Part shown: piece by piece, positions 7,985 to 34,009 of the stretch
Layout: the number at the start of each line of letters is the position of its first letter
How positions within the stretch are numbered: the stretch's first letter is position 1
DNA from: an uncultured Clostridia bacterium
GTDB lineage: Bacteria > Bacillota > Clostridia > Oscillospirales > Acutalibacteraceae
DNA length: 34,154 nucleotides
Assembly (NCBI GenBank): GCA_947624865.1
Contig: CANQMH010000013.1
Span: 1-34,154 of the forward strand
Direction of reading: 5' to 3'
Made by a program: the position numbers and the translations under genes
The notes under the pieces: generated by a model
Told to the model about the DNA's origin: nothing
Database searches by the model: none
Seen by the model: the letters and a program-made list of their open reading frames with translations, nothing else

Positions 7985-8058
7985 GCGGATGTAGTTTAGT
8001 GGTAGAACTTCAGCCTTCCAAGCTGATCGTGTGGGTTCGATTCCCATCATCCGCTCCA
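7985..8058 (+). tRNA. tRNA-Gly (anticodon TCC)
   Basis: GCGGATG/CATCCGC acceptor stem, TTCCAA anticodon loop, GGGTTCGATTCCC T-arm, encoded CCA. Confidence 0.95.
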
Positions 8059-9020: not shown

Positions 9021-9043
9021 AAGTGTCCCTCCGAGGGACACTT
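9021..9043. repeat. Dispersed palindrome copy HP1
   Basis: AAGTGTCCCTCCGAGGGACACTT. Confidence 0.9.
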
Positions 9044-9095
9044 AAAAAAGCATTACTAAGTGAATAAATATCACAATGAAAAAGAGAGATATACT

Positions 9096-9743
9096 ATGTC
9101 ATTACTTATAGATATCCCTTATTGCGATAAGGATGAAGCTAAATTATTAGGAGCAAAATGGAATCCTGAATTAAAAAAATGGTTTATTAAAAATAAGTCA
9201 GATTATCCTAAATTCTCAAAATGGATTGTTAAAGGAGAAGGTTATACCACTATTTTGTGTGATTATTTTTACATTGTATTGGGAGTTAGAAAGTGCTTTA
9301 AATGCCATAAGCTAACAAATGTAATGTGTTTTGCTGTTAAAAATTTTTTGTTAATGGGTAAATCTCAGAATGAATTTGACTTTCCATATGAATATTTTCA
9401 CAATGATGTACATATTTCACCGATAATTAAATCATTGCCGGAGGGGTTTCTTGGATTTTTAAATAACAAATATAAATTTTATTTTGATTTTTCAAAAACA
9501 ACAGGAGATAGTTATTTTGCAAATCATTGTGACCATTGTGGAATGATTCAGGGAAATTATTATTTATTTGAAGAACCGGATTCTCCGTTCTATGTGGATT
9601 CTGTAGAATGTGCATCTGAATTAAATTTATTTAAAATAAAACTTAAATATGACTTAATATGTGATCTTGATTTGTCAATAGGATCAGATGACTATTTAAT
9701 TGAAAAATACGCAAAATTACATGATACGGATATTGTGATATAA
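9096..9743 (+). CDS. Hypothetical protein with DUF5710-like N-terminal domain and Cys-pair zinc-ribbon-like motifs
   Basis: IPYCDKDEAKLLGAKWNPELKKWFI; CFKCHK and CDHC; ATG at 9096 preferred over 9060. Confidence 0.65.
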   Translation: MSLLIDIPYCDKDEAKLLGAKWNPELKKWFIKNKSDYPKFSKWIVKGEGYTTILCDYFYIVLGVRKCFKCHKLTNVMCFAVKNFLLMGKSQNEFDFPYEYFHNDVHISPIIKSLPEGFLGFLNNKYKFYFDFSKTTGDSYFANHCDHCGMIQGNYYLFEEPDSPFYVDSVECASELNLFKIKLKYDLICDLDLSIGSDDYLIEKYAKLHDTDIVI

Positions 9744-9748
9744 AAAAT

Positions 9749-9775
9749 ACAAGTGTCCCTCCAAGGGACACTTGT
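9749..9775. repeat. Dispersed palindrome copy HP2
   Basis: ACAAGTGTCCCTCCAAGGGACACTTGT, between two convergent genes. Confidence 0.9.
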
Positions 9776-9776
9776 T

Positions 9777-10481
9777 TTATAATTTAGATATAAATCCTGC
9801 TGCAATAGCAGCTCCAGCAATAACAGCATTACCTGCTGCATTAGACTTTCTATTATTTCTGATTAGATTGTTGATATTTTGTAACGCTTGCATTTGCCGA
9901 TTAAATTGAAAATTCATACGGCGTTCATATTCAAATAAATTAATTGCTTCTTTAAGATTATCTGCTCTTCTATTTAGTATGTAATTAATAATCATATCAC
10001 CAGCAAACCAATAAACCTCAGGTAAGTAATTATATTCGGATATTTGTTTCGATATTTGATTTATTTTATTTAAAATATCATTGATGTTGTTGTTTAAAAC
10101 AATAATGCTTGATTTGGCGCGCTTCACTTTATATTTATGTGATATTGACGTTGAGGCTTTATATATTGTCCAGATTGCCATTCCAATAAATGATAAAGAT
10201 AATATAAATATAATCATAAATGAAGCCATCCGTGAACCAACATCAGGATTGGTTTTGATATTATAACTATGAAATATTTCTAAAATTACAATCATAATTA
10301 AAACTGCTATTCTCCAAGTAAAGCACCAAACAGGGCCGAAGCAAAATATTTTTTTATTTATCAAATTCATATATTCTGTTTTTTGTCGTTGAAGATTAAT
10401 TAAATGATTTACCCATTGATTTCTTGTTTTACAAAGATATAGTAATTGATTTAAAATAGTTGTATCGGTAATTTCTATCAT
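9777..10481 (-). CDS. Hypothetical membrane protein (two TM segments)
   Basis: Hydrophobic segments WRIAVLIMIVILEIF and ASFMIIFILSLSFIGMAIWTIY; start ATG 10481 with GGAGAT SD. Confidence 0.6.
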   Translation of the reverse strand: MIEITDTTILNQLLYLCKTRNQWVNHLINLQRQKTEYMNLINKKIFCFGPVWCFTWRIAVLIMIVILEIFHSYNIKTNPDVGSRMASFMIIFILSLSFIGMAIWTIYKASTSISHKYKVKRAKSSIIVLNNNINDILNKINQISKQISEYNYLPEVYWFAGDMIINYILNRRADNLKEAINLFEYERRMNFQFNRQMQALQNINNLIRNNRKSNAAGNAVIAGAAIAAGFISKL

Positions 10482-10590
10482 ATTTATATCTCCATTTACT
10501 GTTATATGTTCCAGTATATCACATATTTTGACATTGTTCAATGAAATTTGTTAGTTTTATTTACTGAAACAATATTAAATGATTAAAAAT

Positions 10591-10613
10591 AAGTGTCCCT
10601 CGGAGGGACACTT
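10591..10613. repeat. Dispersed palindrome copy HP3
   Basis: AAGTGTCCCTCGGAGGGACACTT followed by GTTTTTT. Confidence 0.9.
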
Positions 10614-10899: not shown

Positions 10900-13347
10900 T
10901 TGAAAATGAGGTGTAATATGAAAAATTATAAAAAATCAATTAAAGTCGTATTTTCAATTTGTTTGGCTCTATGTATCTTGTCAAACTGTATGTTAATTGC
11001 TTACTCGAAAACAGAATCAACAAATTCAGAGAATACACAAATTATAGGGGATAAGCTCTATGATATTTTGAACAACAGCGCAGATAATGAAAAAATTCCT
11101 GTAAGCATATGGTATAAAGATATTGATCAGGTTAATGTGGATATTATGACAAAAGAAGAAACGGGTTATTCAATTGACTCTCTTTCTGTTAATATGGAGA
11201 ATGATATTCAAAGTATTGATAATGCCGAGCAATTGAAAGACTATTTAAGTAAAACCGCCAATCAGAGAAAAATAGAGAAAACGAGAACGGATAAGTATAT
11301 TAACAAGAGAAGAGAGCTGTCAAGAAAACAATATGTAAAAGCAGTTGACAAATTTTTAAATGAAGTATCAATTGCCGATGATGATATAATTTTTAAGAGC
11401 CAATATGCTCCAATGGTTATTGCAAATATGTCTGTTAATGACATTAAAAAAATTTCAGAAAATAATCTTGTTCAAAGTATAGACTATCATGAAGAACCTA
11501 AGTATGAGGAATGCACTAAAGAAAGTATTGCAAGCAATACCGGATATAATCAACTAGTTTCAGACTTTGGCCTTACAGGAGCAGGAATAAAAGTGGGAAT
11601 TGTTGAAAACGGTTATCCCACAGTTGACCCTGAACTTGATTTAACTAAAATTCATAAAGTTGGAAATATAGGAACATCCGATCATGCGGCCAATACATCA
11701 AAAATACTTATGGGCTCAGAAAGTGGATTTGCTAAAAATATTGATTTATATTCTACGAATACTGTATACAGTAATATAGAAGCAATGTTGTCTAATGGAG
11801 TACAACTAATTAATGTTAGCTTAAGCTGGACACTCACAGAAGATAATACAACTGAAAGCTATGCTGAAAAAGAACAAGACAAATGGTTTAATCATATTGT
11901 TTCGTATCATAATGTAACGGTTGTTGCATCGGCCGGAAACGACGGTCAGGGTTCTGTAGATAATAATGGTAATGTTTACAGACGTGTTGCTTCTCCTGCA
12001 ATGGCACATAATGTAATTGCAGTAGGAGCCTACGATGATAAGAATACAGCAGATAAAAGCGATGATGTTATTTATCCATATAGCAGCTACAAAAATTCAA
12101 ATGGCTCAGTTCGCGGGCTTGAAAAACCTGATGTTGTTATGTCGGCAAATATAGGGGGAAACGGTACAAGCTCATCTGCACCGGTTTTAACTGCTATGCT
12201 TGCTCTTATGTTTGAATTGAAACCATCAGTTGCGGCTTTTCCACAAGCTGTTAAGGCGATTGTTTTGGCATCATGCAACAGAAAAATTGCATCCTACGAA
12301 AATGATAATGAATTGAATAGTGGTCTGACAGATAAGCAGGGTGCAGGTGCGCCTGACGTAATGTTGATGGCAGATATTCTGTGTCAGGGTACATATGGTA
12401 TTGGAACAATTGAGGGAGATGAAACGGAAGATTCAATGCGTTTTGTACAACTCCCTTATGGTGCATCTAATATGAACGTCAGTCTTGCATGGTTAAAAGA
12501 AAACACAGGTGATTGTGCTGGAAATTTATATAGTAAAAGTAATGTTGATTTGGACTTGTCACTTTTAAGAGATAAAACTTTAATTAAGACATCTAATAAT
12601 TCATATTCATCTACTGAGTTAATTACCTCTGCTTTAGCCGGAAGCGGCAATTATGAAATGAAAGTAAAAAAATATACTAAAGATTATGATGAAACAGTAA
12701 GATATGGATATGCATATTGTTCTGATACATCCTACTCTAAAAAAGTTTCACAGGAAGGTATTTATTATTTAAAAGATTACCAGGGAAATTACTTGACTTT
12801 TGATAGCAATGACAACAGTTTAAAATTACAGCCGTTTACAGGAGAATTAAATCAGAAATGGTTATTTAAAAAATATAAAAAAGAGCTTGGTGTTTATCCT
12901 TGTGCCGGAGAATCTGATAAAGGCATTGGAATAGGTGATGCTGTAGGCGGAACACCAGTTAACAACACTGTACTTAAGGATGAAATAATGGGCGTCGGTA
13001 TTTATGGATTTGAAGAGAGCGGACGTCAAGATGGAAAGACATACTTTTATTCAAGAAGCAGTGGAAAATTTTTTAGTGCAAGTGGCAGTTCACTTGTATT
13101 AGTTATGGGTTCTAATATTAATAATCTTCCTCAAAATCAACTATGGAATCTTGAAAAAGTCGGATACCATTTAGGCGATGTTAATTTGGATGGAAAAATT
13201 AGTTCAGATGATATATCAATGATTCAAAATTATTTGGCTCATTTTTCAACATTTAATAATGTTCAAAAATACTTAGCAGATTTTGACGAAGATGGATCGG
13301 TTACTATTCGTGACGTGACTGTAATGCAGATTAAATTTGGATTATAA
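10900..13347 (+). CDS. Secreted subtilisin-like (S8) serine protease with ricin-like region and C-terminal type I dockerin
   Basis: Signal peptide; VGIVENG, DHAANTS, VVASAGNDG, NGTSSSAPV; C-term GDVNLDGKISSDDISMIQNYL...ADFDEDGSVTIRDVTVMQ dockerin repeats; the preferred ATG may be 10918 (MKNYKKS). Confidence 0.85.
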   Translation: MKMRCNMKNYKKSIKVVFSICLALCILSNCMLIAYSKTESTNSENTQIIGDKLYDILNNSADNEKIPVSIWYKDIDQVNVDIMTKEETGYSIDSLSVNMENDIQSIDNAEQLKDYLSKTANQRKIEKTRTDKYINKRRELSRKQYVKAVDKFLNEVSIADDDIIFKSQYAPMVIANMSVNDIKKISENNLVQSIDYHEEPKYEECTKESIASNTGYNQLVSDFGLTGAGIKVGIVENGYPTVDPELDLTKIHKVGNIGTSDHAANTSKILMGSESGFAKNIDLYSTNTVYSNIEAMLSNGVQLINVSLSWTLTEDNTTESYAEKEQDKWFNHIVSYHNVTVVASAGNDGQGSVDNNGNVYRRVASPAMAHNVIAVGAYDDKNTADKSDDVIYPYSSYKNSNGSVRGLEKPDVVMSANIGGNGTSSSAPVLTAMLALMFELKPSVAAFPQAVKAIVLASCNRKIASYENDNELNSGLTDKQGAGAPDVMLMADILCQGTYGIGTIEGDETEDSMRFVQLPYGASNMNVSLAWLKENTGDCAGNLYSKSNVDLDLSLLRDKTLIKTSNNSYSSTELITSALAGSGNYEMKVKKYTKDYDETVRYGYAYCSDTSYSKKVSQEGIYYLKDYQGNYLTFDSNDNSLKLQPFTGELNQKWLFKKYKKELGVYPCAGESDKGIGIGDAVGGTPVNNTVLKDEIMGVGIYGFEESGRQDGKTYFYSRSSGKFFSASGSSLVLVMGSNINNLPQNQLWNLEKVGYHLGDVNLDGKISSDDISMIQNYLAHFSTFNNVQKYLADFDEDGSVTIRDVTVMQIKFGL

Positions 13348-13365
13348 TTAATCTGTATAAAAAAA

Positions 13366-13390
13366 TACCTGTCCCTCCGAGGGACAGGTA
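13366..13390. repeat. Dispersed palindrome copy HP4 (compensated variant)
   Basis: TACCTGTCCCTCCGAGGGACAGGTA, both outer arms changed with pairing preserved. Confidence 0.9.
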
Positions 13391-13400
13391 TTGAAAATAG

Positions 13401-13424
13401 GCACTTCTGGTTTTTAAGAAGTGC
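13401..13424. repeat. Unrelated small hairpin between HP4 and HP5
   Basis: GCACTTC...GAAGTGC. Confidence 0.6.
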
Positions 13425-13434
13425 TAATCTGATG

Positions 13435-13473
13435 ATAACAGCAAGTGTCCCTCCAAGGGACACTTGCTGTTAT
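13435..13473. repeat. Dispersed palindrome copy HP5 (18-bp perfect stem)
   Basis: ATAACAGCAAGTGTCCCT-CCA-AGGGACACTTGCTGTTAT. Confidence 0.92.
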
Positions 13474-13476
13474 ATA

Positions 13477-13740
13477 TTACCGTTCATAATGAGACCACAG
13501 GCTGATTATTTTTATTTGTTTTGTTTCCTCGTAAACCTGATAAATAAGTCTGTGTTTAGAATTAATTCTGCGTGAGTAAGCTCCTTTTAAATCACCAACT
13601 AACTTTTCATATGTTGGAGGTATCTGATAAGGGTTTTCTTTTATAAGAGCTATTAGATTTTTGGCAGTTTTATCAAGATGAGCTGCTTTTAATTTTGGAA
13701 TATCTTTTTGAGCAGTTTTTGTATATAGAATTTGATACAT
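13477..13740 (-). CDS. yoeB: Txe/YoeB family toxin
   Basis: LKGAYSRRINSKHRLIYQVYEE...SLWSHYER; directly follows the antitoxin ORF. Confidence 0.88.
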   Translation of the reverse strand: MYQILYTKTAQKDIPKLKAAHLDKTAKNLIALIKENPYQIPPTYEKLVGDLKGAYSRRINSKHRLIYQVYEETKQIKIISLWSHYER

Positions 13741-13989
13741 TTACCATTCTACCTCATCTTCTGAAACACACTCTGAAAGAGGAGTATTAAGACCGTCGAC
13801 AATTTTTTCTTTCATTTCAGGAATAGAAGTAAGGTTAAGAGTTTCCATTAATCCTCTGTAATCTTCTTCACTGATAACTATTGCGTTGCCGTCCTTTGTG
13901 CTTATATTTACAGGTTCATTAAATTTTACGGTTTGCTCTAATACTTTATAAATATCTTTTCTGAAATTAGTAATGTTTGTATTATACAT
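13741..13989 (-). CDS. yefM: YefM/Phd family antitoxin
   Basis: NITNFRKDIYKVLEQTVKFNEPVNISTKDGNAIVISEEDYRGLMETLNL; start at 13989. Confidence 0.87.
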   Translation of the reverse strand: MYNTNITNFRKDIYKVLEQTVKFNEPVNISTKDGNAIVISEEDYRGLMETLNLTSIPEMKEKIVDGLNTPLSECVSEDEVEW

Positions 13990-14071
13990 ATGATCCACCT
14001 CAATAATATTATAGCGTACATATTTATGTACGTCAATATTATTTTCAAAATTTTTAAATATATTCAATTGT

Positions 14072-14091
14072 AAGTGTCCCTCCGAGGGACA
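14072..14091. repeat. Dispersed palindrome copy HP6 (short right arm)
   Basis: AAGTGTCCCTCCGAGGGACAGATAAAATT. Confidence 0.88.
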
Positions 14092-14106
14092 GATAAAATT
14101 ATTGTT

Positions 14107-14676
14107 TTAATAATTAATGTAATAATCACGTTTTAAATTGCAGTCTAAATAAGTTATATTTTCAGACCACATTCCGCTCTTTGCTTTTTCTGCCTCTATC
14201 TGGGCGTATGTGAATACATCTGCATATTTTGTATTTGGTTTATATTCCTTTGCAACCGCATATCCATTAACAACAAGGTCATAATTTACCATGTTATCAT
14301 CAAGATATACATATGCAAGTAATCGTCCATAGGGGTCATATTTATCTTTATCATATTCAAGCGATATTTTTTTATTTGACAAAAGGCCCTTTGTATAATC
14401 AGAAGCAGTTTTGCCAAACTCACAATTTTTACTTTCATCAGAATGTACACTTTCCGGTGTATCTATTCCTATCAAACGAACTTTTGTGTTTTCACCGTCT
14501 AAGTCAATTATGATTGTGTCACCGTCAACTACTCTGACTACATCATATTTAACTACATCGCTTGAAGGTGCTGTGATAGAGTTTGCAGATATATTTTCAA
14601 GGTGAATATCATCACAGCCCGTTATGATAAATATAATTATAATAATGGAAGTTAATAGTGTAAATAATTTTTTCAT
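14107..14676 (-). CDS. Thermonuclease (SNase) family lipoprotein
   Basis: Lipobox ITGCDD; VDGDTIIIDL, VRLIGIDTPES, YDPYGRLLAYVYLDD. Confidence 0.92.
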   Translation of the reverse strand: MKKLFTLLTSIIIIIFIITGCDDIHLENISANSITAPSSDVVKYDVVRVVDGDTIIIDLDGENTKVRLIGIDTPESVHSDESKNCEFGKTASDYTKGLLSNKKISLEYDKDKYDPYGRLLAYVYLDDNMVNYDLVVNGYAVAKEYKPNTKYADVFTYAQIEAEKAKSGMWSENITYLDCNLKRDYYINY

Positions 14677-14696
14677 TTAAATATCTCCTCTATATT

Positions 14697-15050
14697 TTAA
14701 ACAAGTGTCCCTCCGAGGGACACTTGTTTTATAAAATTCTTGAAAACAGCATTTTCAGTATAAGGGTTTAAAGTAATATATAAATAAAATAATTTTTTTA
14801 ACTGTTTCTTTTTGTTATCATCTTTGCAATAAAAAATATCTGTTTCTAATATTTTTAGATTGTTAATATATTCATCACAATTATGTTTGTTTCTGGATGC
14901 ACGGAAAGCCATAATATAAAAATTCTTATGAGAAATTCTTTGCGAACGTTTTATATTTGTTAGTTTCAATTCATCATATAAGAGCATATGTTTAATTTTT
15001 TGTAAATTGTTTTCTATGGTTTGTTTTGTTAATGTTACTTCAATTTTCAT
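14697..15050 (-). CDS. Hypothetical protein (117 aa); C-terminus encoded by HP7
   Basis: ORF with GGAG SD; last residues KQVSLGGTLV read through the palindrome. Confidence 0.55.
   Translation of the reverse strand: MKIEVTLTKQTIENNLQKIKHMLLYDELKLTNIKRSQRISHKNFYIMAFRASRNKHNCDEYINNLKILETDIFYCKDDNKKKQLKKLFYLYITLNPYTENAVFKNFIKQVSLGGTLV
14699..14729. repeat. Dispersed palindrome copy HP7
   Basis: AAACAAGTGTCCCTCCGAGGGACACTTGTTT. Confidence 0.9.
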
Positions 15051-15071
15051 TATTATTCTCCTTTAAAAGCA

Positions 15072-15096
15072 CAAGTGTCCCACAGAGGGACACTTG
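15072..15096. repeat. Dispersed palindrome copy HP8
   Basis: CAAGTGTCCCACAGAGGGACACTTG. Confidence 0.88.
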
Positions 15097-15127
15097 CTTA
15101 ATACTAAAAAATATAATTTTAGGCTAA

Positions 15128-15412
15128 TTACAGAGAAGCCTGTGCTGATTCATCTATGCAAAGACTACAAGTTGATTGTTCCGGAATATTCTCATGGCTT
15201 TTAAGTGTGTATAATAGAGCATATATAGGTTTATCTTTTTTAAAAATCAATATATCTCCCTTATATGTTCTATCAAAAGGAAGATTTACAGGGTCTTCAA
15301 TTTCAACACTATTTACATTAAAGGTTGTTTTATTGTATTCAATATTGTTAATATCAATATCAAGCATTTTTTTGATGGCGTCAGTAATTGGTTTTTGAAA
15401 TAAAAATATCAT
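15128..15412 (-). CDS. Hypothetical protein (94 aa)
   Basis: ORF with AAAGGA SD, bounded by HP8 and HP9. Confidence 0.5.
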   Translation of the reverse strand: MIFLFQKPITDAIKKMLDIDINNIEYNKTTFNVNSVEIEDPVNLPFDRTYKGDILIFKKDKPIYALLYTLKSHENIPEQSTCSLCIDESAQASL

Positions 15413-15435
15413 ATTAAAAGTCCTTTCATGTTTAC

Positions 15436-15455
15436 AAGTGTCCCTCGGAGGGACA
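15436..15455. repeat. Dispersed palindrome copy HP9 (short right arm, extended tail)
   Basis: AAGTGTCCCTCGGAGGGACAGATAAATTTATTTTTTCTCTGCTTT. Confidence 0.88.
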
Positions 15456-15553
15456 GATAAATTTATTTTTTCTCTGCTTTATGGGCTTTGTAGTATGTAC
15501 GGAGTGGTACAGGTTAATTGGTTTTTTGCAGATTTATTATTAAGATATTTTTT

Positions 15554-15580
15554 GCAAGTGTCCCTTGGAGGGACACTTGC
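15554..15580. repeat. Dispersed palindrome copy HP10
   Basis: GCAAGTGTCCCTTGGAGGGACACTTGC. Confidence 0.9.
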
Positions 15581-15586
15581 TTAAAA

Positions 15587-16018
15587 TTAAAATGGTAAAT
15601 CCTCATCCAATGGCATTTCCTCAAAGTCATTGTGAGCTGACATTTGCGGTTGTGCAGTAGGTGCAGACGGATTGGTGTTAGCATTATTATTTTTATCTCT
15701 GCGTTCGCCTGTAAATGATACTGTATCGGCAACGACTTCCGTAATATAACGGTTAGTGCCGTCTTTTGCCTGATATGTACGGCTTTGCAGTTTACCTTCA
15801 AGAGCAATCAGACTGCCTTTTGTAAAATATCTGCAAACAAATTCGGCGGTGTTGTTCCAACAAACAATATCGAAAAAGTCTGCTTTGCGTTCTTCGCCGG
15901 GTTTAGCGTAGTTTCGGTCAACAGCAATGCGGAAACTTGTTACGCTTTTTCCTGTGCTTGTTGTTTTGAGTTCGGGAGCAGCAACAAGTCTGCCCATTAA
16001 TACGATTCTGTTTAACAT
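15587..16018 (-). CDS. ssb: Single-stranded DNA-binding protein
   Basis: MLNRIVLMGRLVAAPELK, acidic tail EEMPLDEDLPF. Confidence 0.95.
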   Translation of the reverse strand: MLNRIVLMGRLVAAPELKTTSTGKSVTSFRIAVDRNYAKPGEERKADFFDIVCWNNTAEFVCRYFTKGSLIALEGKLQSRTYQAKDGTNRYITEVVADTVSFTGERRDKNNNANTNPSAPTAQPQMSAHNDFEEMPLDEDLPF

Positions 16019-16053
16019 TTTTAAAGTCTCCTTTGTATTGTAATTTTTATTTC

Positions 16054-16076
16054 AAGTGTCCCTCCGAGGGACACTT
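16054..16076. repeat. Dispersed palindrome copy HP11
   Basis: AAGTGTCCCTCCGAGGGACACTT. Confidence 0.9.
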
Positions 16077-16174
16077 ATTTATTGATAAAATTTATAGATT
16101 GTGGAACAAGCATTAATGTAATCATTATCGACCTCTGAATATTTTCTTTCCTTTACTTATCTTTATTTATATTA

Positions 16175-16261
16175 TACACTAAAAATTGTGTATTTTCAAT
16201 TGACATTATACACATATATTAGAGCATGTTTTTGTTTATTATATACATTGTTTTTTGTGTA
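16175..16261. promoter_or_regulatory. Candidate operator array upstream of XRE regulator 1
   Basis: TACAC-N8-GTGTA (16175-16192), TACAC-N8-GAGCA (16209-16226), TACAT-N8-GTGTA (16244-16261), centres 34-35 bp apart; TATAAT at 16272-16277. Confidence 0.6.
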
Positions 16262-16305
16262 TGTTATTTGATATAATAAACTTAAAATTTACTGGGGGAA
16301 TAGAA

Positions 16306-16515
16306 ATGTTAAAATATAAAGTTGATGTATTATCAGAATTAAAAAATAGAGGATTTACTACTTACAAAATACGAAAAGAAAAAATTTTTGGAGAAGCTAC
16401 ATTACAAAAATTTCGTAACGGACAAGTAATTTCAGCAGATAATCTTGATAGTCTTTGCAAATGCTTAGATTGCCAGCCCGGAGATATACTTGAATATGTG
16501 CCGGATGAAGAATAA
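16306..16515 (+). CDS. XRE/Cro-CI family HTH regulator 1 (69 aa)
   Basis: FTTYKIRKEKIFGEATLQKFRNGQ...LDSLCKCLDCQPGDILEYV; GGGGGA SD. Confidence 0.85.
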   Translation: MLKYKVDVLSELKNRGFTTYKIRKEKIFGEATLQKFRNGQVISADNLDSLCKCLDCQPGDILEYVPDEE

Positions 16516-16533
16516 GTGTCCCTCGGAGGGACA
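16514..16533. repeat. Dispersed palindrome copy HP12 (short right arm)
   Basis: AAGTGTCCCTCGGAGGGACATAGATAA; overlaps the TAA stop of the HTH gene. Confidence 0.88.
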
Positions 16534-16548
16534 TAGATAATAACTGTA

Positions 16549-16770
16549 TCATTCATACATGTTTTGAAAATTATCTATCCATTTTTTATATTCGCTGTCA
16601 CAGTTTTTTAATTCATTTGTCCATTCGACACGGTTTTTATATCCAGCAGCTTCTGAAATAATTTTTTCAATTACTCTAATCGTGAAATCTGTTGAAAATA
16701 CTTCAGGGTCTTTCTTTGCCTTTCGTCTGATGGTTTCAATCTTATCAAGTATTTCTAATTCTTTTTTCAT
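16549..16770 (-). CDS. Hypothetical protein (73 aa), divergent from XRE regulator 2
   Basis: ORF with AGGAGG-like SD; charged, helical-looking. Confidence 0.5.
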   Translation of the reverse strand: MKKELEILDKIETIRRKAKKDPEVFSTDFTIRVIEKIISEAAGYKNRVEWTNELKNCDSEYKKWIDNFQNMYE

Positions 16771-16803
16771 TTTAATGCCTCCTAAATTTTATGTATATAT
16801 TAT

Positions 16804-16857
16804 ATCACTAATAATAGATATGTTTTTGTCTATATTGTCACTTGTAATAGAGATATA
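16804..16857. promoter_or_regulatory. Candidate operator direct repeats upstream of XRE regulator 2
   Basis: ATCACTAATAATAGATAT and GTCACTTGTAATAGAGATAT, 33-bp register. Confidence 0.5.
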
Positions 16858-16894
16858 AAAATTGTATAATAAAAAGCTGAAAGGGGACTGTAAT

Positions 16895-17104
16895 ATGCCA
16901 ATTACGTATGACAGATTATTAGAAATTTTTAGAGAGAGAGGAATAACTTCATATACTATAAAGAAAGAAAATATTATAGGACAAGCTAGTTATAAAAAAA
17001 TAAAAGACGGTGGGGATATAGACACTCGAACTATTGCTAAGCTATGTAAATATTTAGATTGTCAGCCTGGAGATATACTTGAATACGTGCCGGATGAAGA
17101 ATAA
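16895..17104 (+). CDS. XRE/Cro-CI family HTH regulator 2 (69 aa), paralog of regulator 1
   Basis: ITSYTIKKENIIGQASYKKIKDG...LCKYLDCQPGDILEYVPDEE; AAGGGG SD. Confidence 0.83.
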   Translation: MPITYDRLLEIFRERGITSYTIKKENIIGQASYKKIKDGGDIDTRTIAKLCKYLDCQPGDILEYVPDEE

Positions 17105-17122
17105 GTGTCCCTCCGAGGGACA
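17103..17122. repeat. Dispersed palindrome copy HP13 (short right arm, extended tail)
   Basis: AAGTGTCCCTCCGAGGGACAGAAAAATTTATTTTTTCTCTGCTTT; overlaps the TAA stop. Confidence 0.88.
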
Positions 17123-17278
17123 GAAAAATTTATTTTTTCTCTGCTTTCGGGGCTTTGCGCTATGCCTGAAGCGGTGCAGGACATTTTCTTTTTTAATGCC
17201 GGGCTTACTTAATCGGATTTTATTTTTAACTTTCTCCTAATTGTTTCCCGATAAGAATATGTAAGGTATAATGATGAA

Positions 17279-17308
17279 AGCCGTTTCTTAATTGCAACGG
17301 TTTTTTAC
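17279..17308 (+). terminator. Rho-independent terminator-like hairpin
   Basis: CCGTT-tcttaattgc-AACGG followed by TTTTTT. Confidence 0.6.
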
Positions 17309-17447
17309 ATACCCATTTTAAGTTTATATTGCAAAGAAAAGTCCATAGAGCGTAGGGGGAGAGCGGATATAGAATTTCCCGCAGAAAAATGGCTGTAAAA
17401 ACAAAATTCAGCCACGATTTTAAGCAGGTGCGATTTAGCAGGATAAA

Positions 17448-17620
17448 GGAGTAACTGTATAAATACAGTTACTCCAGTCACAAATGTCAGCAGTGCTGAC
17501 ATTTTTAATGCAGTTACTTTTACAGTTACTTAAAAGGTCAATACAATTACTTTAAAATTACTTTTCCTTTTTTTGCTGATAAATACTGAATTTTGTATAC
17601 AGTTACTTTTACAGTTACCA
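17448..17620. repeat. Iteron-like cluster of TACAGTTACTTT motifs plus two perfect palindromes
   Basis: GGAGTAACTGTAT-AA-ATACAGTTACTCC (17448-17475); AAATGTCAGCA-G-TGCTGACATTT (17482-17504); CAGTTACTTTTACAGTTAC at 17511 and 17600. Confidence 0.65.
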
Positions 17621-17662
17621 TATTTTTTCAGATAAAAATTTGCAAAAAAATAAACATATGGT

Positions 17663-18955
17663 TTACAATTCAAAGTTGTGAATATGATCCCACAGCAACG
17701 CTTTTATATACGCTGCGGGCTGCTTAATGATGTAACGTGAAAAACATAAATCATAGCAGTTGACGGTTTCAAGAATAAGGTCACGCAAGGATAATCCGTC
17801 TATGTCCTCTAATATACAGTCATTCAGGTAATCAAAAAGTCTGGAGGTTTTAACAAGCTGCTTGTTGTATAATCCATGCTCTTTTACGCAAAGCATTTCA
17901 ACAAGCAAATTGACTGTTTTGCAATACTGCCTTGAAAATTTGTCGTTTTTGTTTGAGTATTCATCAAATCTCGTCAGACTGTAAATCATTTGTCTTATCT
18001 CATTTTCATTCTGTGTGTAGGGTATATAACCTACTTCAAGATTAGATGAAGATATATTATTATTACTGTTAATACTGGTAATGTTATTATTGTCGCAATT
18101 TTCAGGACACGGTAATGTCTCAAAATTTCGTACACGGTCATTTTTTAAAATGTCTTTATTTTTGGGACACGGTAAAAACTCAGTATTTATCGGAGTTTTT
18201 AAAATGTCCCTATTTTTAGGACACGGTGCAACATCAGTATTTATCGGACTTTCTGAATTGTCGCAATTTTTAGGACACGGTGATTTTGATGGGTTGCTGT
18301 TGAGAATGTAATCATTAACTGAGAAACGTCCGTTTTTTGTGTGTCTTTGCTTAACGGTTATGTAGTTGTATTCAATCAGCTGATTGAGTGCTTTATAATA
18401 TGTGTTTTTTGAAATCCCTAAAAATATGCAGACGGTAGAGCGGTGCGGAAAAGCTCTGCATCCGCTCTGAACAAGGCTGTAAAAAAACGCAATCAGACCT
18501 TTTGCTATAATACTGAGCCGTTTATCACACATAATTATCTTTGGAATGAAGCCATAGCCCTTTGCATTGATACCGTCCAATGATAAAAGGCTTTCACTCT
18601 GTTCACTGTTAATTTCGCATTTTATTTTCTTAGGATTATTGCAAACCGTATAGACGTTTTTGTTCTTAAAACCTTTTGCTTTGCTGATTTTTATATAACC
18701 GTTTATAAGGAGCGGTTTAAAATGCTTGTAAAAGGTGTTTTTAGACATTTTTAGGTCAGTAAGGATAGTTTCCCTTTTTGGAAAGATTGTTCGCCCTGCA
18801 CCCGTGTAGGACACGAAATAAGCATAAATAGCTTTGCTCTGAACTGATAAATCACGGTCAAACATAACTGACTGAGGAAGTATGCCGTAACCCTGAGCAT
18901 TAACACCCTCAACTTCCAGTATATTTTCAATGTCGTTTTTATAATTTTCTTCCAC
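17663..18955 (-). CDS. Replication-initiator-like / HTH_36-type DNA-binding protein with two winged-helix units
   Basis: Two homologous segments (GYGILPQSVMFDRDLSVQSKAIYAYF..., GYGFIPKIIMCDKRLSIIAKGLIAFF...) with MSKNTFYKH / ISKNTYYKAL recognition-helix motifs. Confidence 0.7.
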   Translation of the reverse strand: MEENYKNDIENILEVEGVNAQGYGILPQSVMFDRDLSVQSKAIYAYFVSYTGAGRTIFPKRETILTDLKMSKNTFYKHFKPLLINGYIKISKAKGFKNKNVYTVCNNPKKIKCEINSEQSESLLSLDGINAKGYGFIPKIIMCDKRLSIIAKGLIAFFYSLVQSGCRAFPHRSTVCIFLGISKNTYYKALNQLIEYNYITVKQRHTKNGRFSVNDYILNSNPSKSPCPKNCDNSESPINTDVAPCPKNRDILKTPINTEFLPCPKNKDILKNDRVRNFETLPCPENCDNNNITSINSNNNISSSNLEVGYIPYTQNENEIRQMIYSLTRFDEYSNKNDKFSRQYCKTVNLLVEMLCVKEHGLYNKQLVKTSRLFDYLNDCILEDIDGLSLRDLILETVNCYDLCFSRYIIKQPAAYIKALLWDHIHNFEL

Positions 18956-21811: not shown

Positions 21812-24800
21812 TTAATAATCATAGCTTTGTTCGTAATCACTGATGGCATGACCTGCATATATTTTTTGAATTTTTTCTTTATGCAGAAGTTTTGTATCAG
21901 AAACATATCTGTTTTTTGCGGCAGCCATAGTTTCAGTATTTATCATTCTGCCAAGGTGACAGGCCGTTGTTGCAATAGACATAACTGATAACTGCCTTAT
22001 CTGCTGTGCTTCATCAATTTTTTGCTGTGCTTTCTGATTGCCAAGCTCAACAGATTTTTTATACCAGAAAATAGCCTTGTCAATGTCTCGCTCGACACCT
22101 AATCCGTAATGGTAGAAAGTACCTATACGCATAGCCAAGGAGCTGTCTGTAGGATTTTTAGAAAATTCCGTTTGATATGCAGGCAGGGCAGAGGAGAAGT
22201 ATTTGTTTGACAGCATATCATTTTTAAATCCGTAATTTTCAGATTTATAAATATATCCGAGCTGATAAGCGGCATCAGGATTGCCTTGCTCAGCTGATTT
22301 TTCAAACCAGGCAACAGATTGAGAAATGTCCTGTACTGTTCCCTGAGCATTGAAGTACATCTGACCTATCCGGTAAGCGGTGAAGTCATCCGGATTTTCC
22401 TGATAATCTGAAATGTATTGCTGTAAGGCATTGCCGTAACAGATGTTTGCTTTTTCAGTATCGAGCACACCGTACCCAGTATCAGAATAAATTTGTCCCA
22501 GTCTGTACCAGGCATGAGAGATATTCTTATCCGCAGCTTGTTCAAAATATTTTATTGCCTGCGGTATGTCGTTATTTTCAAGACTGATATTGCCTAAATA
22601 ATAACAAGCATAAGGATTATTGTTTTCAGCAGACATTTTAAAAAATTCTTCTGCTCTACGTAAATTTTGTGGTACGTCTGTACCTGAGTAATAAATCTTT
22701 CCAAGCTGATAAGCAGCGTTAATATTTTCATTTACTAATGCTTTTTCAAACCACTTAACAGCTTTATCAATATCTTTTTCTGTGCCTTGACCTGAAAGAA
22801 ACATCTTGCCTAAACGGTATTCAGTGGTTGAATTTTTTTGCTCTGTTTCAGAGTTAAGGTAAGAATTAAGTGCAAACGAAAAATAATCATTAGCTTTATT
22901 AGTATCAAAAAAGTCTGAATCAGGCTGAGAGTGAATAATACCGAGCTGATAGGCTGCATCGGGATTGCCCTGCTCGGCTGACTTTTCAAACCAGGCAATA
23001 GACTGAGGAATGTCCTGTACAGTTCCCTGAGCATTGAAGTACATCTGACCTATGCGGTAAGCGATGAAGTCATCCGGGTTTTCCTGATAGTCTGAAATGT
23101 ATTGCTGTAAGGCATTGCCGTAACAAACGTTTGCTTTTTCGGCATCGAGCACACCATACTCAGTATCAGAATAAATTTGTCCCAGTCTGTACCAGGCATG
23201 AGAGATATTATTATCCGCAGCTTGTTCAAAATATTTTATTGCCTGAGGTATGTCGCTATTTTCAAGACTGATATTGCCTAATTTGTAATTAGCATACGGA
23301 TTGCCAAGTTCAGAAGAAAGTTGATAAAAAAGAAATGCCTTTTCGGGGTTTTTCGTAACTTCTGTTCCTTCATCATATAAAACGGCAAGTTTATAGGCTG
23401 CCGAAGCATTGCCGTTTGAAGTCGATTTACTAAACCAATGCACAGCCTTGTCAATATTTTTATCTACGCCTAATCCGTTAAGATAAATTAAGCCGATTCG
23501 ATATTCTGCCGTGGCATTGCTGTTTTCTTCCTCTGCTTTTTCATAATCTGATAAAGCTGCAGCGTAATATTTATTTGACTTAGCAATATCCGATAGGGCG
23601 TATTTCTCAGAGGAATATATGTAACCTAACTGATAAGCTGCATCGGGATTGCCTTGCTCGGCTGACTTTTCAAACCATTTTACAGCTTCATCTATGTTTA
23701 TATTCGTTCCCTTACCGTTGAGATACATACTTGCGATACGAATTTCAGTGAAAGCGTCATGACTGTTTTGTTCCTGTTGTAACAGTTCGTCAAGCGCTTT
23801 TTGATATAAAGAATAAATTGTGTCGCTGGACTTTTGAAATGTTTCAGGGTTGTTTTCGTAAAGTTCCGCAAGGTCATAGTTTGCAAGCGTAACTCTGTTT
23901 ATAGCTTTTAAAAGGTATTTTTCGGCATTTATTATGTCTGCGTTTACACCCTCGCCTTTAATATACATTTTTGCAATACGGTAGTCGGCATAACTGTCAT
24001 TTGCCTCACTTGCCTTTTGGTAATATGACAATGCTTCTGAATAATCCTGATTGAATCCTAAACCGTAATAATATTGATTGCCTATATAGTAATTTGCGTG
24101 AGCATAACCGTTTTCTGCTGCAAGTAAAAAGGTCTGGTATGATTTAAAATAATCCTGTTCAACACCTTCGCCTTTAAGGTACATACGACCCATTAAATAC
24201 TCTTTATAAGCATCTGATTTTGGTACTTTGGTTTGATAACGCAGATCATTAAATCCATTGTTAAGGTCATCAAAAAAGGTGCTGTTTTTTATTTCATCCC
24301 AAAATTTATAGAAGGCCTTGTTACAATAGTAATGTCCAAGTTCATTATCTATATCTATACCGTCGGCACCGTAAAGGTAAAGTTGACCAAGTCTATAAGA
24401 AGCCATACTGTCCTGAAACTGGTCTGCTGCAATGCCATACCACATAACAGCCTGTGTAATATCTTTTTCTATACCTTTGCCATAATTATAACAATCGGCA
24501 AGGTTTCGGCATATTTCACCGTTTCGTGAAGAAAGATCTGTTGCAAGAATAGAAAGAGACTTAAAGTTTTTGATTGATTCGTCATCCGATTCAAAAATTA
24601 AACGTGAGCCAAATATTTCCCGTAATTCAGGAGTGTCCGGCTCAGGCGAATAGAAAATATGTTCCGGGAATTGTTTCATATATTTTTGTACCGGGTCATA
24701 GTGTGATAAATTGTTATTTCTGCTTTCTTTCGGGGCAGGCGAGGGGAGGACATTATTTGTACTTGAATTATTTTTAATTTTAGGAACATATGTATCTATT

Positions 24801-26461
24801 AAATTATCAATCGTGTAAACGGATGAATCTTTAGTAGTATTGATATTCATAGATTTCTCATTTACTTTAATGTTATCTCTGTTTTCTTTCGGGGCAGGCG
24901 AGGGAATAACTTTATCTGCATTTAAAGTGTTTTTAATGTCAGAAGCATATGTATGTGTTGAATCGTCAATTGTGCTGGCTGCAGAGGTATTGCATACAAC
25001 ATCAATTGGCTGTTCAAGATTTATTATGCCGTCCCTAATATTTTCAGCCTGCTTCAGAATACTGTTCTTTATTTTTGTAAAATCTGAAACCGTCTCAATT
25101 GACGGAATATCAGGCAGTTTATCCTTAACATAAAATTTATGAAGATTGTATTTTTCTTTAGCCCAATTATTATATAGGTCTGATAATTGCTTGTTGTTAT
25201 TTACGAGCGATTTTTCAATATCATTTACAAGTTCTTTTACCTTTTTAGGCGACCAGCCATATTCAATTTTTCCATGAGTGGGGAGATTGTCGGCTAAATT
25301 AAGCATTTTGTTAATTAAATCATTAAGGTTTTTATCCGAGATATATTTATTTGGATTTTTCAGCAATTCATCAAGTTTTTCTTCTGCTTGTTCTTTAAGC
25401 TCATCTCGGTATAAGTCCTTATCTATAAGGATTTCGTATCTTTCATCGTTAAAAATTTGTGTTACAAACGTTCTTTTTAATAGCGTTATACTTTTATTTG
25501 CTTTTTCACTATAAAAACCTTCATTTGGGTCAATTGAAAAAACAAATAAATGTATATGCGGATGGTGACCGGTATTGTGCATTGCAGCATACCATCTTAA
25601 ATTTTCGGGTTTAATATTATGAGCTTTTGCAATTGTATCTATATTTGCCATAATTAAGTCACGCCAAGGTTTTTGAGAATCATATCCGAGTGCGCCGGCA
25701 TCTTCACGTCTTAATGAAAGTATATGTGTCCAGATGTTTCCCTTGTGTTTTGATACTTCTTCCTTTGCTTCTTCTAAATCTACATTTTCAAATGATGAGA
25801 ACAAACCGTGTTCTCCGACTCTGACAGCACCTGGACGTTTGGCGGCGTATTCAACAAGGTTTGAAACTTGACCTTGTTTCATTAAAAGTTCTTCCGATAA
25901 TCGAGAAATCAGCTCCGAAGCATTTTGTACTGTCGGAGCTGATTCATAATCATCGTATTCAAGAGGAATATCCTCATTGTCTTTATAATTAATTTGTTTT
26001 AACAAACTGTTAATAGTATTAATTTGTTTTTCTGTTGCCGGGCGTTTGGTGTTATCATAAAAATTAATGGTTTCAATTCCTTTTTGTGCGGCCGACTGCG
26101 CAGATTCGTCAAGCGAGTTGTCTGCCAATATTTCCTCCGTCATTCGATTGATTAATTTTAATGCGTTGTTTCGTGAAGAATCAGATTTATAATCATCCAT
26201 TTCGGAAAAATTAATAGATATATTATTATCTTCAAATGCTTTTATCAATTCATTTATACTTTCTTTTTGTCTGCTTGTAGCAGAAAGTTCAACTGATTCA
26301 TTTATAAGGTTATAGTCAACAGATTCACGCGTGGCACAGTATTCAACAAGTGCTTTAACATGATCTTCACTAAGAGCGTAATCACTAATCGGTTCACCTG
26401 GCTTTGCAACATGAAAAAATCTTGACTGAAGAATAAAACGTGCGCCCTGCATTACATTCAC
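21812..26461 (-). CDS. MobP-like relaxase fused to a long Sel1-repeat (TPR-like) C-terminal region (1549 aa)
   Basis: N-term QGARFILQSRFF..., HUH-type motif MHNTGHHPHIHLFVF; many AxxWYxKAAExGNxxAxYxLGxxYxxG repeats. Confidence 0.87.
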   Translation of the reverse strand: MNVMQGARFILQSRFFHVAKPGEPISDYALSEDHVKALVEYCATRESVDYNLINESVELSATSRQKESINELIKAFEDNNISINFSEMDDYKSDSSRNNALKLINRMTEEILADNSLDESAQSAAQKGIETINFYDNTKRPATEKQINTINSLLKQINYKDNEDIPLEYDDYESAPTVQNASELISRLSEELLMKQGQVSNLVEYAAKRPGAVRVGEHGLFSSFENVDLEEAKEEVSKHKGNIWTHILSLRREDAGALGYDSQKPWRDLIMANIDTIAKAHNIKPENLRWYAAMHNTGHHPHIHLFVFSIDPNEGFYSEKANKSITLLKRTFVTQIFNDERYEILIDKDLYRDELKEQAEEKLDELLKNPNKYISDKNLNDLINKMLNLADNLPTHGKIEYGWSPKKVKELVNDIEKSLVNNNKQLSDLYNNWAKEKYNLHKFYVKDKLPDIPSIETVSDFTKIKNSILKQAENIRDGIINLEQPIDVVCNTSAASTIDDSTHTYASDIKNTLNADKVIPSPAPKENRDNIKVNEKSMNINTTKDSSVYTIDNLIDTYVPKIKNNSSTNNVLPSPAPKESRNNNLSHYDPVQKYMKQFPEHIFYSPEPDTPELREIFGSRLIFESDDESIKNFKSLSILATDLSSRNGEICRNLADCYNYGKGIEKDITQAVMWYGIAADQFQDSMASYRLGQLYLYGADGIDIDNELGHYYCNKAFYKFWDEIKNSTFFDDLNNGFNDLRYQTKVPKSDAYKEYLMGRMYLKGEGVEQDYFKSYQTFLLAAENGYAHANYYIGNQYYYGLGFNQDYSEALSYYQKASEANDSYADYRIAKMYIKGEGVNADIINAEKYLLKAINRVTLANYDLAELYENNPETFQKSSDTIYSLYQKALDELLQQEQNSHDAFTEIRIASMYLNGKGTNINIDEAVKWFEKSAEQGNPDAAYQLGYIYSSEKYALSDIAKSNKYYAAALSDYEKAEEENSNATAEYRIGLIYLNGLGVDKNIDKAVHWFSKSTSNGNASAAYKLAVLYDEGTEVTKNPEKAFLFYQLSSELGNPYANYKLGNISLENSDIPQAIKYFEQAADNNISHAWYRLGQIYSDTEYGVLDAEKANVCYGNALQQYISDYQENPDDFIAYRIGQMYFNAQGTVQDIPQSIAWFEKSAEQGNPDAAYQLGIIHSQPDSDFFDTNKANDYFSFALNSYLNSETEQKNSTTEYRLGKMFLSGQGTEKDIDKAVKWFEKALVNENINAAYQLGKIYYSGTDVPQNLRRAEEFFKMSAENNNPYACYYLGNISLENNDIPQAIKYFEQAADKNISHAWYRLGQIYSDTGYGVLDTEKANICYGNALQQYISDYQENPDDFTAYRIGQMYFNAQGTVQDISQSVAWFEKSAEQGNPDAAYQLGYIYKSENYGFKNDMLSNKYFSSALPAYQTEFSKNPTDSSLAMRIGTFYHYGLGVERDIDKAIFWYKKSVELGNQKAQQKIDEAQQIRQLSVMSIATTACHLGRMINTETMAAAKNRYVSDTKLLHKEKIQKIYAGHAISDYEQSYDY
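22259..22597. repeat. Segmental duplication copy A within relaxase Sel1 region
   Basis: 339-nt ungapped near-identical match to 22943-23281. Confidence 0.88.
22943..23281. repeat. Segmental duplication copy B within relaxase Sel1 region
   Basis: Near-identical to 22259-22597, offset exactly 684 nt (228 codons). Confidence 0.88.
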
Positions 26462-27729: not shown

Positions 27730-27756
27730 GCAAGTGTCCCTCCGAGGGACACTTGC
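27730..27756. repeat. Dispersed palindrome copy HP14
   Basis: GCAAGTGTCCCTCCGAGGGACACTTGC. Confidence 0.92.
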
Positions 27757-31821: not shown

Positions 31822-31848
31822 GCAAGTGTCCCTTAGAGGGACACTTGC
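31822..31848. repeat. Dispersed palindrome copy HP15
   Basis: GCAAGTGTCCCTTAGAGGGACACTTGC. Confidence 0.92.
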
Positions 31849-33992: not shown

Positions 33993-34009
33993 TGTCCCTT
34001 CGGGGGACA
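33993..34009. repeat. Dispersed palindrome copy HP16 (divergent)
   Basis: TGTCCCTTCGGGGGACA. Confidence 0.75.

Follow-up and report, generated by a model that had tools for sequence, protein, structure and literature searches.

Short palindromes separating the cargo genes of a gut ICE are probable parS sites and cassette joints

The cargo genes of an ICE in an uncultured Clostridia bacterium (genome G000) are separated by copies of a 17-bp palindrome, TGTCCC-TCnGA-GGGACA. In related ICEs single genes or operons are absent, duplicated, moved or present, with junctions exactly at these palindromes. We consider it likely that the palindromes are the dispersed parS sites of a ParABS system encoded by the ICE, and that recombination between these short repeats exchanges cassettes. 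As the sites are probably parS and single genes are gained and lost exactly there, the centromere of the ICE would also mark the joints of its cargo cassettes. We infer ParB binding and a partition function from sequence comparisons. Dispersed parS sites are a known kind of system; new here are the ICE setting and the consequence for cassette joints. An earlier note on this DNA had read the array as one-gene cassettes delimited by a palindrome that may be the recombination or insertion unit. That reading is partly supported: its structural part is confirmed, while the mechanism is replaced.

The window, by which we mean the whole 34,154-nucleotide stretch analyzed, contains 16 matches to the consensus TGTCCCTNNNAGGGACA with up to two mismatches, compared with 0.04 expected. 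Thirteen of them stand between genes at 9.0-17.1 kb and three lie in the conjugation region. Seven further copies are found on C33, the contig with the other half or end of the ICE, and bring the total for this element to at least 23. When the whole 1.9-Mb genome was scanned, the exact core was confined to the window and C33. Carriers are rare elsewhere (3 of 59 relatives); further ones are MAGs recorded as Ruminococcus or uncultured Clostridia, and a scan of viral contigs yielded no palindromes. Comparison of 144 copies showed a near-invariant core, TGTCCC in 270 of 288 half-sites, with flanks of the form YA(A/T/C)(G/C). The outer arms vary partly independently, matching in 58 copies where 41 would be expected under independence. 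Changes in the core arms are one-sided and uncompensated, indicating that the sequence is conserved, beyond a hairpin alone.

The 26-bp attachment core attL, formed by the 3' end of tRNA-Gly, lies at 8033..8058 on the plus strand and recurs as attR on C33 (20663-20688). The first putative parS site (9024..9040) is the left border of a cassette with a plus-strand gene for a DUF5710 protein (9060..9743). The second (9754..9770) is followed by a minus-strand membrane protein gene (9777..10541; its DUF3810 match is sub-threshold) and the third (10594..10610) by a plus-strand gene for a subtilase with a dockerin domain (10900..13347). Two sites, 13370..13386 with ACC arms and 13446..13462, then precede a minus-strand operon of a YoeB/ParE-like toxin and a Phd/YefM antitoxin (13477..14067). 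Beyond the site at 14075..14091 is a gene that the earlier note named a thermonuclease (14107..14676, minus strand). The next site (14706..14722) holds the stop codon of the minus-strand gene for a 117-aa protein (14697..15050), and the site at 15076..15092 separates this gene from that of a 94-aa protein (15128..15412, minus strand); both proteins are without a Pfam match. The sites at 15439..15455 and 15559..15575 enclose a 120-bp unit without an assigned gene, followed by the minus-strand gene for a single-strand DNA-binding protein (15587..16018). The array continues with a site at 16057..16073, the plus-strand gene XRE1 (HTH_26; 16255..16515), a site at 16517..16533, a cassette of a minus-strand 73-aa ORF and plus-strand XRE2 (16549..17104), and the last cargo site at 17106..17122; the stop codons of XRE1 and XRE2 overlap the sites at 16517 and 17106, respectively. 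In the conjugation region, one site lies between two conjugation genes (27735..27751), another at 31827..31843 and a divergent one at 33993..34009. Palindromes do separate the listed genes between 9.0 and 17.1 kb as the earlier note proposed, but its scheme of one palindrome on each side fails where two separate the subtilase gene from the toxin-antitoxin operon and the 94-aa gene from the ssb gene. The strands of the cassette genes bear out its observation that modules occur in both orientations.

The element has other repetitive features. Another repeat, ~90 bp long (TTTATTTTTTCTCTGCTTT...GGGGCTTTG), begins at certain palindromes and is found again in several ICEs (window 15436-15527 and 17103-17194; L037 5898-5990; L039 11783-11878). 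Tandem repeats at 18082-18284 of the window, within the gene for a 430-aa HTH protein, encode a CPKN motif (SPCPKNCD / APCPKNRD / LPCPKNKD). A 1549-aa protein is encoded upstream of the conjugation genes (21812-26461), with a repeat number that differs between G000 and G062. Dockerin domains occur in several ICE proteins (window 10900-13347; L001 15275-15853; L036 4717-5574), and the ICEs have genes for SpaA-type surface proteins and sortases in addition.

We compared the element with ICE contigs from nine other genomes, including those of G062 (96-97% identical to the G000 ICE), G064 (92-95%) and G029 (~72%). The G064 ICE is missing 14091-15076, from the site at 14075 (L039:9432) to the site at 15076, and retains a single palindrome where the ends meet. 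In G062, 15439-16533 is duplicated, with breakpoints at the sites at 15439 and 16517, and the two copies are separated by a RelE/HTH toxin-antitoxin cassette. The site at 16517 is also a breakpoint in G064, where the same RelE/HTH cassette replaces the 73-aa/XRE2 cassette. The single site at C33:18054 in G000 corresponds in G062 to a one-gene cassette (C11:23909-24895). The G029 ICE is without the 94-aa cassette, and here too a palindrome marks the join; its thermonuclease homologue is located elsewhere, adjoining parB. The single-site junctions are hybrids, with the left flank of one parental site and the right flank of the other. In L001, a block at 12718-15218 encoding an N6/N4 DNA methylase, an ASCH protein and a radical-SAM-like protein, which G062 lacks, has its right end at a palindrome.

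The comparison of related ICEs was the test named in the earlier note, which expected breakpoints at the palindromes; several indels end exactly there, but others lie elsewhere. Differences away from palindromes include Sel1 repeats in a relaxase-region protein, C33 11618-11642, a 155-bp indel upstream of XRE and an integrase exchange about 56 bp from a site. The G000 and G062 ICEs, despite their 96-97% identity, have unrelated tyrosine integrases (C33 19531-20472 vs L035 1391-2467), which implies an integrase swap beside the terminal palindrome. Overall, 14 of 59 alignment ends fall inside palindromes compared with 4.2 expected at random intergenic positions, with events partly counted twice; because most are counted from both sides, the permutation p-value is too optimistic. 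An alignment-stop test likewise favored palindromes (146/175 vs 28/49 for cargo, 57/87 vs 181/409 for core), in comparisons that are not independent and in which palindromes in common draw alignment ends towards themselves. Conservation of gene adjacency with and without an intervening palindrome (169/226 vs 515/603) did not discriminate, since the test required both genes and thereby masked gains and losses.

The probable reader of the palindromes is encoded on C33, where parA (17207-18052) specifies a Walker-type ATPase (AAA_31, 5.4e-40). The adjoining parB product matches ParB_N (1.2e-10) and HTH_ParB (8e-4) as well as solved ParB/Spo0J chains (4umk, 2.4e-13; 1vz0, 1.1e-8). One palindrome lies just upstream of parA and one within parB. 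Searching 150 genomes of the genus with an alignment of the ICE ParB revealed further parAB loci and three ParB groups, each with its own palindrome nearby: TGTCCCTCnGAGGGACA for clade A, TGTCCCACCGTGGGACA for G180a and GTGGACAAnTTGTCCAC for clade B. The HTH recognition segment differs by clade as well, e.g., NTNRKTVHKY vs NLSKKKIYRY. At 18 of 18 related parAB loci the cognate site is found upstream of parA, mostly within ~100 bp and farther away in G131 (~650 bp) and G129b (~355 bp), and many of these loci also have sites within parB. All nine carriers of a clade-A ParB have the matching site, which occurs in 14 of the 150 genomes (Fisher p 2e-11), and so do all eight carriers of a clade-B ParB, with the site in 24 of the 150 (p 1e-7); since each ParB moves on the same element as its sites, part of this co-variation is phylogenetic. 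No clade-B site was seen in the five pieces of clade-A contigs checked. Clade-B sites are likewise dispersed between cargo genes. Some draft MAGs, e.g., G078, G096 and G166, have one or two sites with no cognate parB detected. Genome G129 harbors both clade-A and clade-B parAB, each with its own palindromes and on separate contigs (C3/C19 and C1/C25). XRE proteins had also been considered as readers and were dropped, as no gene of the XRE family F14 was called in the palindrome-carrying contigs of G029, G063 and G066.

Clade B provided a second example of junctions at sites. G100 and G106 differ in parB by the gain or loss of a 96-bp in-frame unit that is delimited exactly by two sites, G106 having one unit more. 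Junctions therefore arise at putative parS sites of two unrelated sequences, which is what recombination between short repeats would predict. The number of sites inside the parB linker varies among clade-B elements (L063 13749; L065 18139-18235 of C24; L064 5054-5225).

Taken as parS, the TGTCCCTCCGAGGGACA sites are predicted to load the ParB of the ICE, which would then spread, keeping the excised or replicating element stable and perhaps also tuning ICE genes. As a common repeat of 17-25 bp between most cargo genes, the sites would be targets for recombination. Two of them, within one ICE or on co-resident ICEs, might recombine through their short homology, by slippage or annealing, so that whole cassettes would be deleted, duplicated or inserted and one hybrid site left behind. 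A counterpoint to parS is that sites are densest in the cargo region, seemingly more than partition alone requires.

The sites could be KorB-like operators, bound by a ParB-family protein, that mainly silence or tune ICE genes, with partition secondary. Of the classified sites, about half are located between genes in tandem, in many cases within tens of bases of a start codon, and on RK2 KorB clamps exert long-range silencing from dispersed OB sites (PMC11790492). Sites are also gained and lost in single conjugation-gene spacers; that at 27735 is present in G062, G064 and G029 and absent in G003, G060 and G066. However, 26 of 129 classified sites lie between convergent genes and 16 of 129 are intragenic, in ICEs that are 84% coding; moreover, the ICE encodes a ParA partner, and its sites are clustered around parAB. 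We regard a mainly regulatory role as rather unlikely, though a serious candidate. More speculative, and in our judgment doubtful, is a centromere-guided exchange, in which ParB clamps bound at parS would pair sites on the same or co-resident ICEs and actively promote recombination. If this were true, partition and cargo shuffling would be one machine and each captured gene would keep its own parS.

A dedicated cassette system, in which a tyrosine or serine recombinase (the ICE integrase, Xer or an integron-like enzyme) excises and inserts modules at the palindromes, now appears improbable. It would account for the exact cassette-like gain and loss with one site remaining and for symmetric sites with variable outer arms, and in several elements the terminal palindrome has a tyrosine recombinase gene close by. 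On the other hand, the palindrome is unchanged across ICEs whose integrases share as little as 16-28% identity, and the att core is a tRNA-Gly 3'-end sequence that is neither the palindrome nor palindromic. The palindrome instead tracks ParB, with copies upstream of parA and inside parB, and equal junctions form at a parS of unrelated sequence. Among the ICEs compared we found no recombinase whose type tracks the palindrome. No attC architecture was seen at the palindromes and no integron integrase was identified. A search of the genome with a dif consensus, allowing three mismatches, returned no match and so did not locate the host dif.

That the palindromes are transcription terminators or RNA hairpins insulating the cassettes is very improbable. 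They have perfect RNA hairpin potential, and in 42 copies, about one third of the total, five consecutive T occur within 16 bases to one side. Most copies, however, are without the T run that should follow the hairpin of an intrinsic terminator on the transcribed strand. The one-sided, non-compensatory core changes, the location of sites inside parB and in 5' leaders, and an Rfam search without matches further argue against such a role. A REP/RAYT or MITE-type mobile palindrome, suggested by the many near-identical short intergenic copies, is largely refuted, as the palindrome is limited to the ICE, its sequence shifts together with ParB, and the genome gave no match to a Y1/IS200/RAYT transposase, the RAYT-like partner that the earlier note had proposed to look for.

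Dispersed parS sites serving as cassette joints, if this reading is right, would explain how these gut ICEs trade single genes, among them toxin-antitoxin pairs, a nuclease, SSB and regulators, without an integron or transposon. The three groups would also offer two or three matched ParB-parS pairs for studies of specificity, and they raise the testable question of whether ParB binding merely supplies scattered homology or promotes recombination.

Several known systems share parts of this arrangement. Short sites flank single genes or toxin-antitoxin pairs in variable order and both orientations in the pdif modules of Acinetobacter (PMC6449649, PMC13141974); those are Xer sites, whereas the ICE palindromes follow ParB, and no recombinase that we found varies in step with them. 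Integron attC cassettes similarly consist of a gene with a flanking imperfect palindrome, gained or lost as a unit, but the ICE site is 17-25 bp long and highly conserved across cassettes, and a parS type of unrelated sequence gives junctions too. Chromosomal ParB-parS (Spo0J) and Noc-NBS have a palindrome of similar length, a ParB HTH reader and sites in or near par genes; their site sequence differs, and these homologues share only 22-28% identity with the clade-A ParBs of the ICEs. SGI1 also has parS-type sites on an integrative element, which hijack the ParABS of IncC (PMC10954446), but it has two sites and borrows ParAB while this ICE has more than 20 sites and its own ParAB. A further parallel is found in dispersed centromeres, in which a ParB-family protein has many sites scattered over the replicon, as in KorB/OB of RK2 (IncP), the linear prophage N15, pSM19035 and the Myxococcus plasmid pMF1 (PMC3235114, PMC11790492). 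Such centromeres are known on a few plasmids, and in the literature searched none is described as forming the cargo-cassette joints of an ICE. Here, in contrast, the replicon is an ICE integrated in gut bacteria of the Ruminococcus type, most of its cargo genes are set apart by the sites, and the cassette junctions fall within them.
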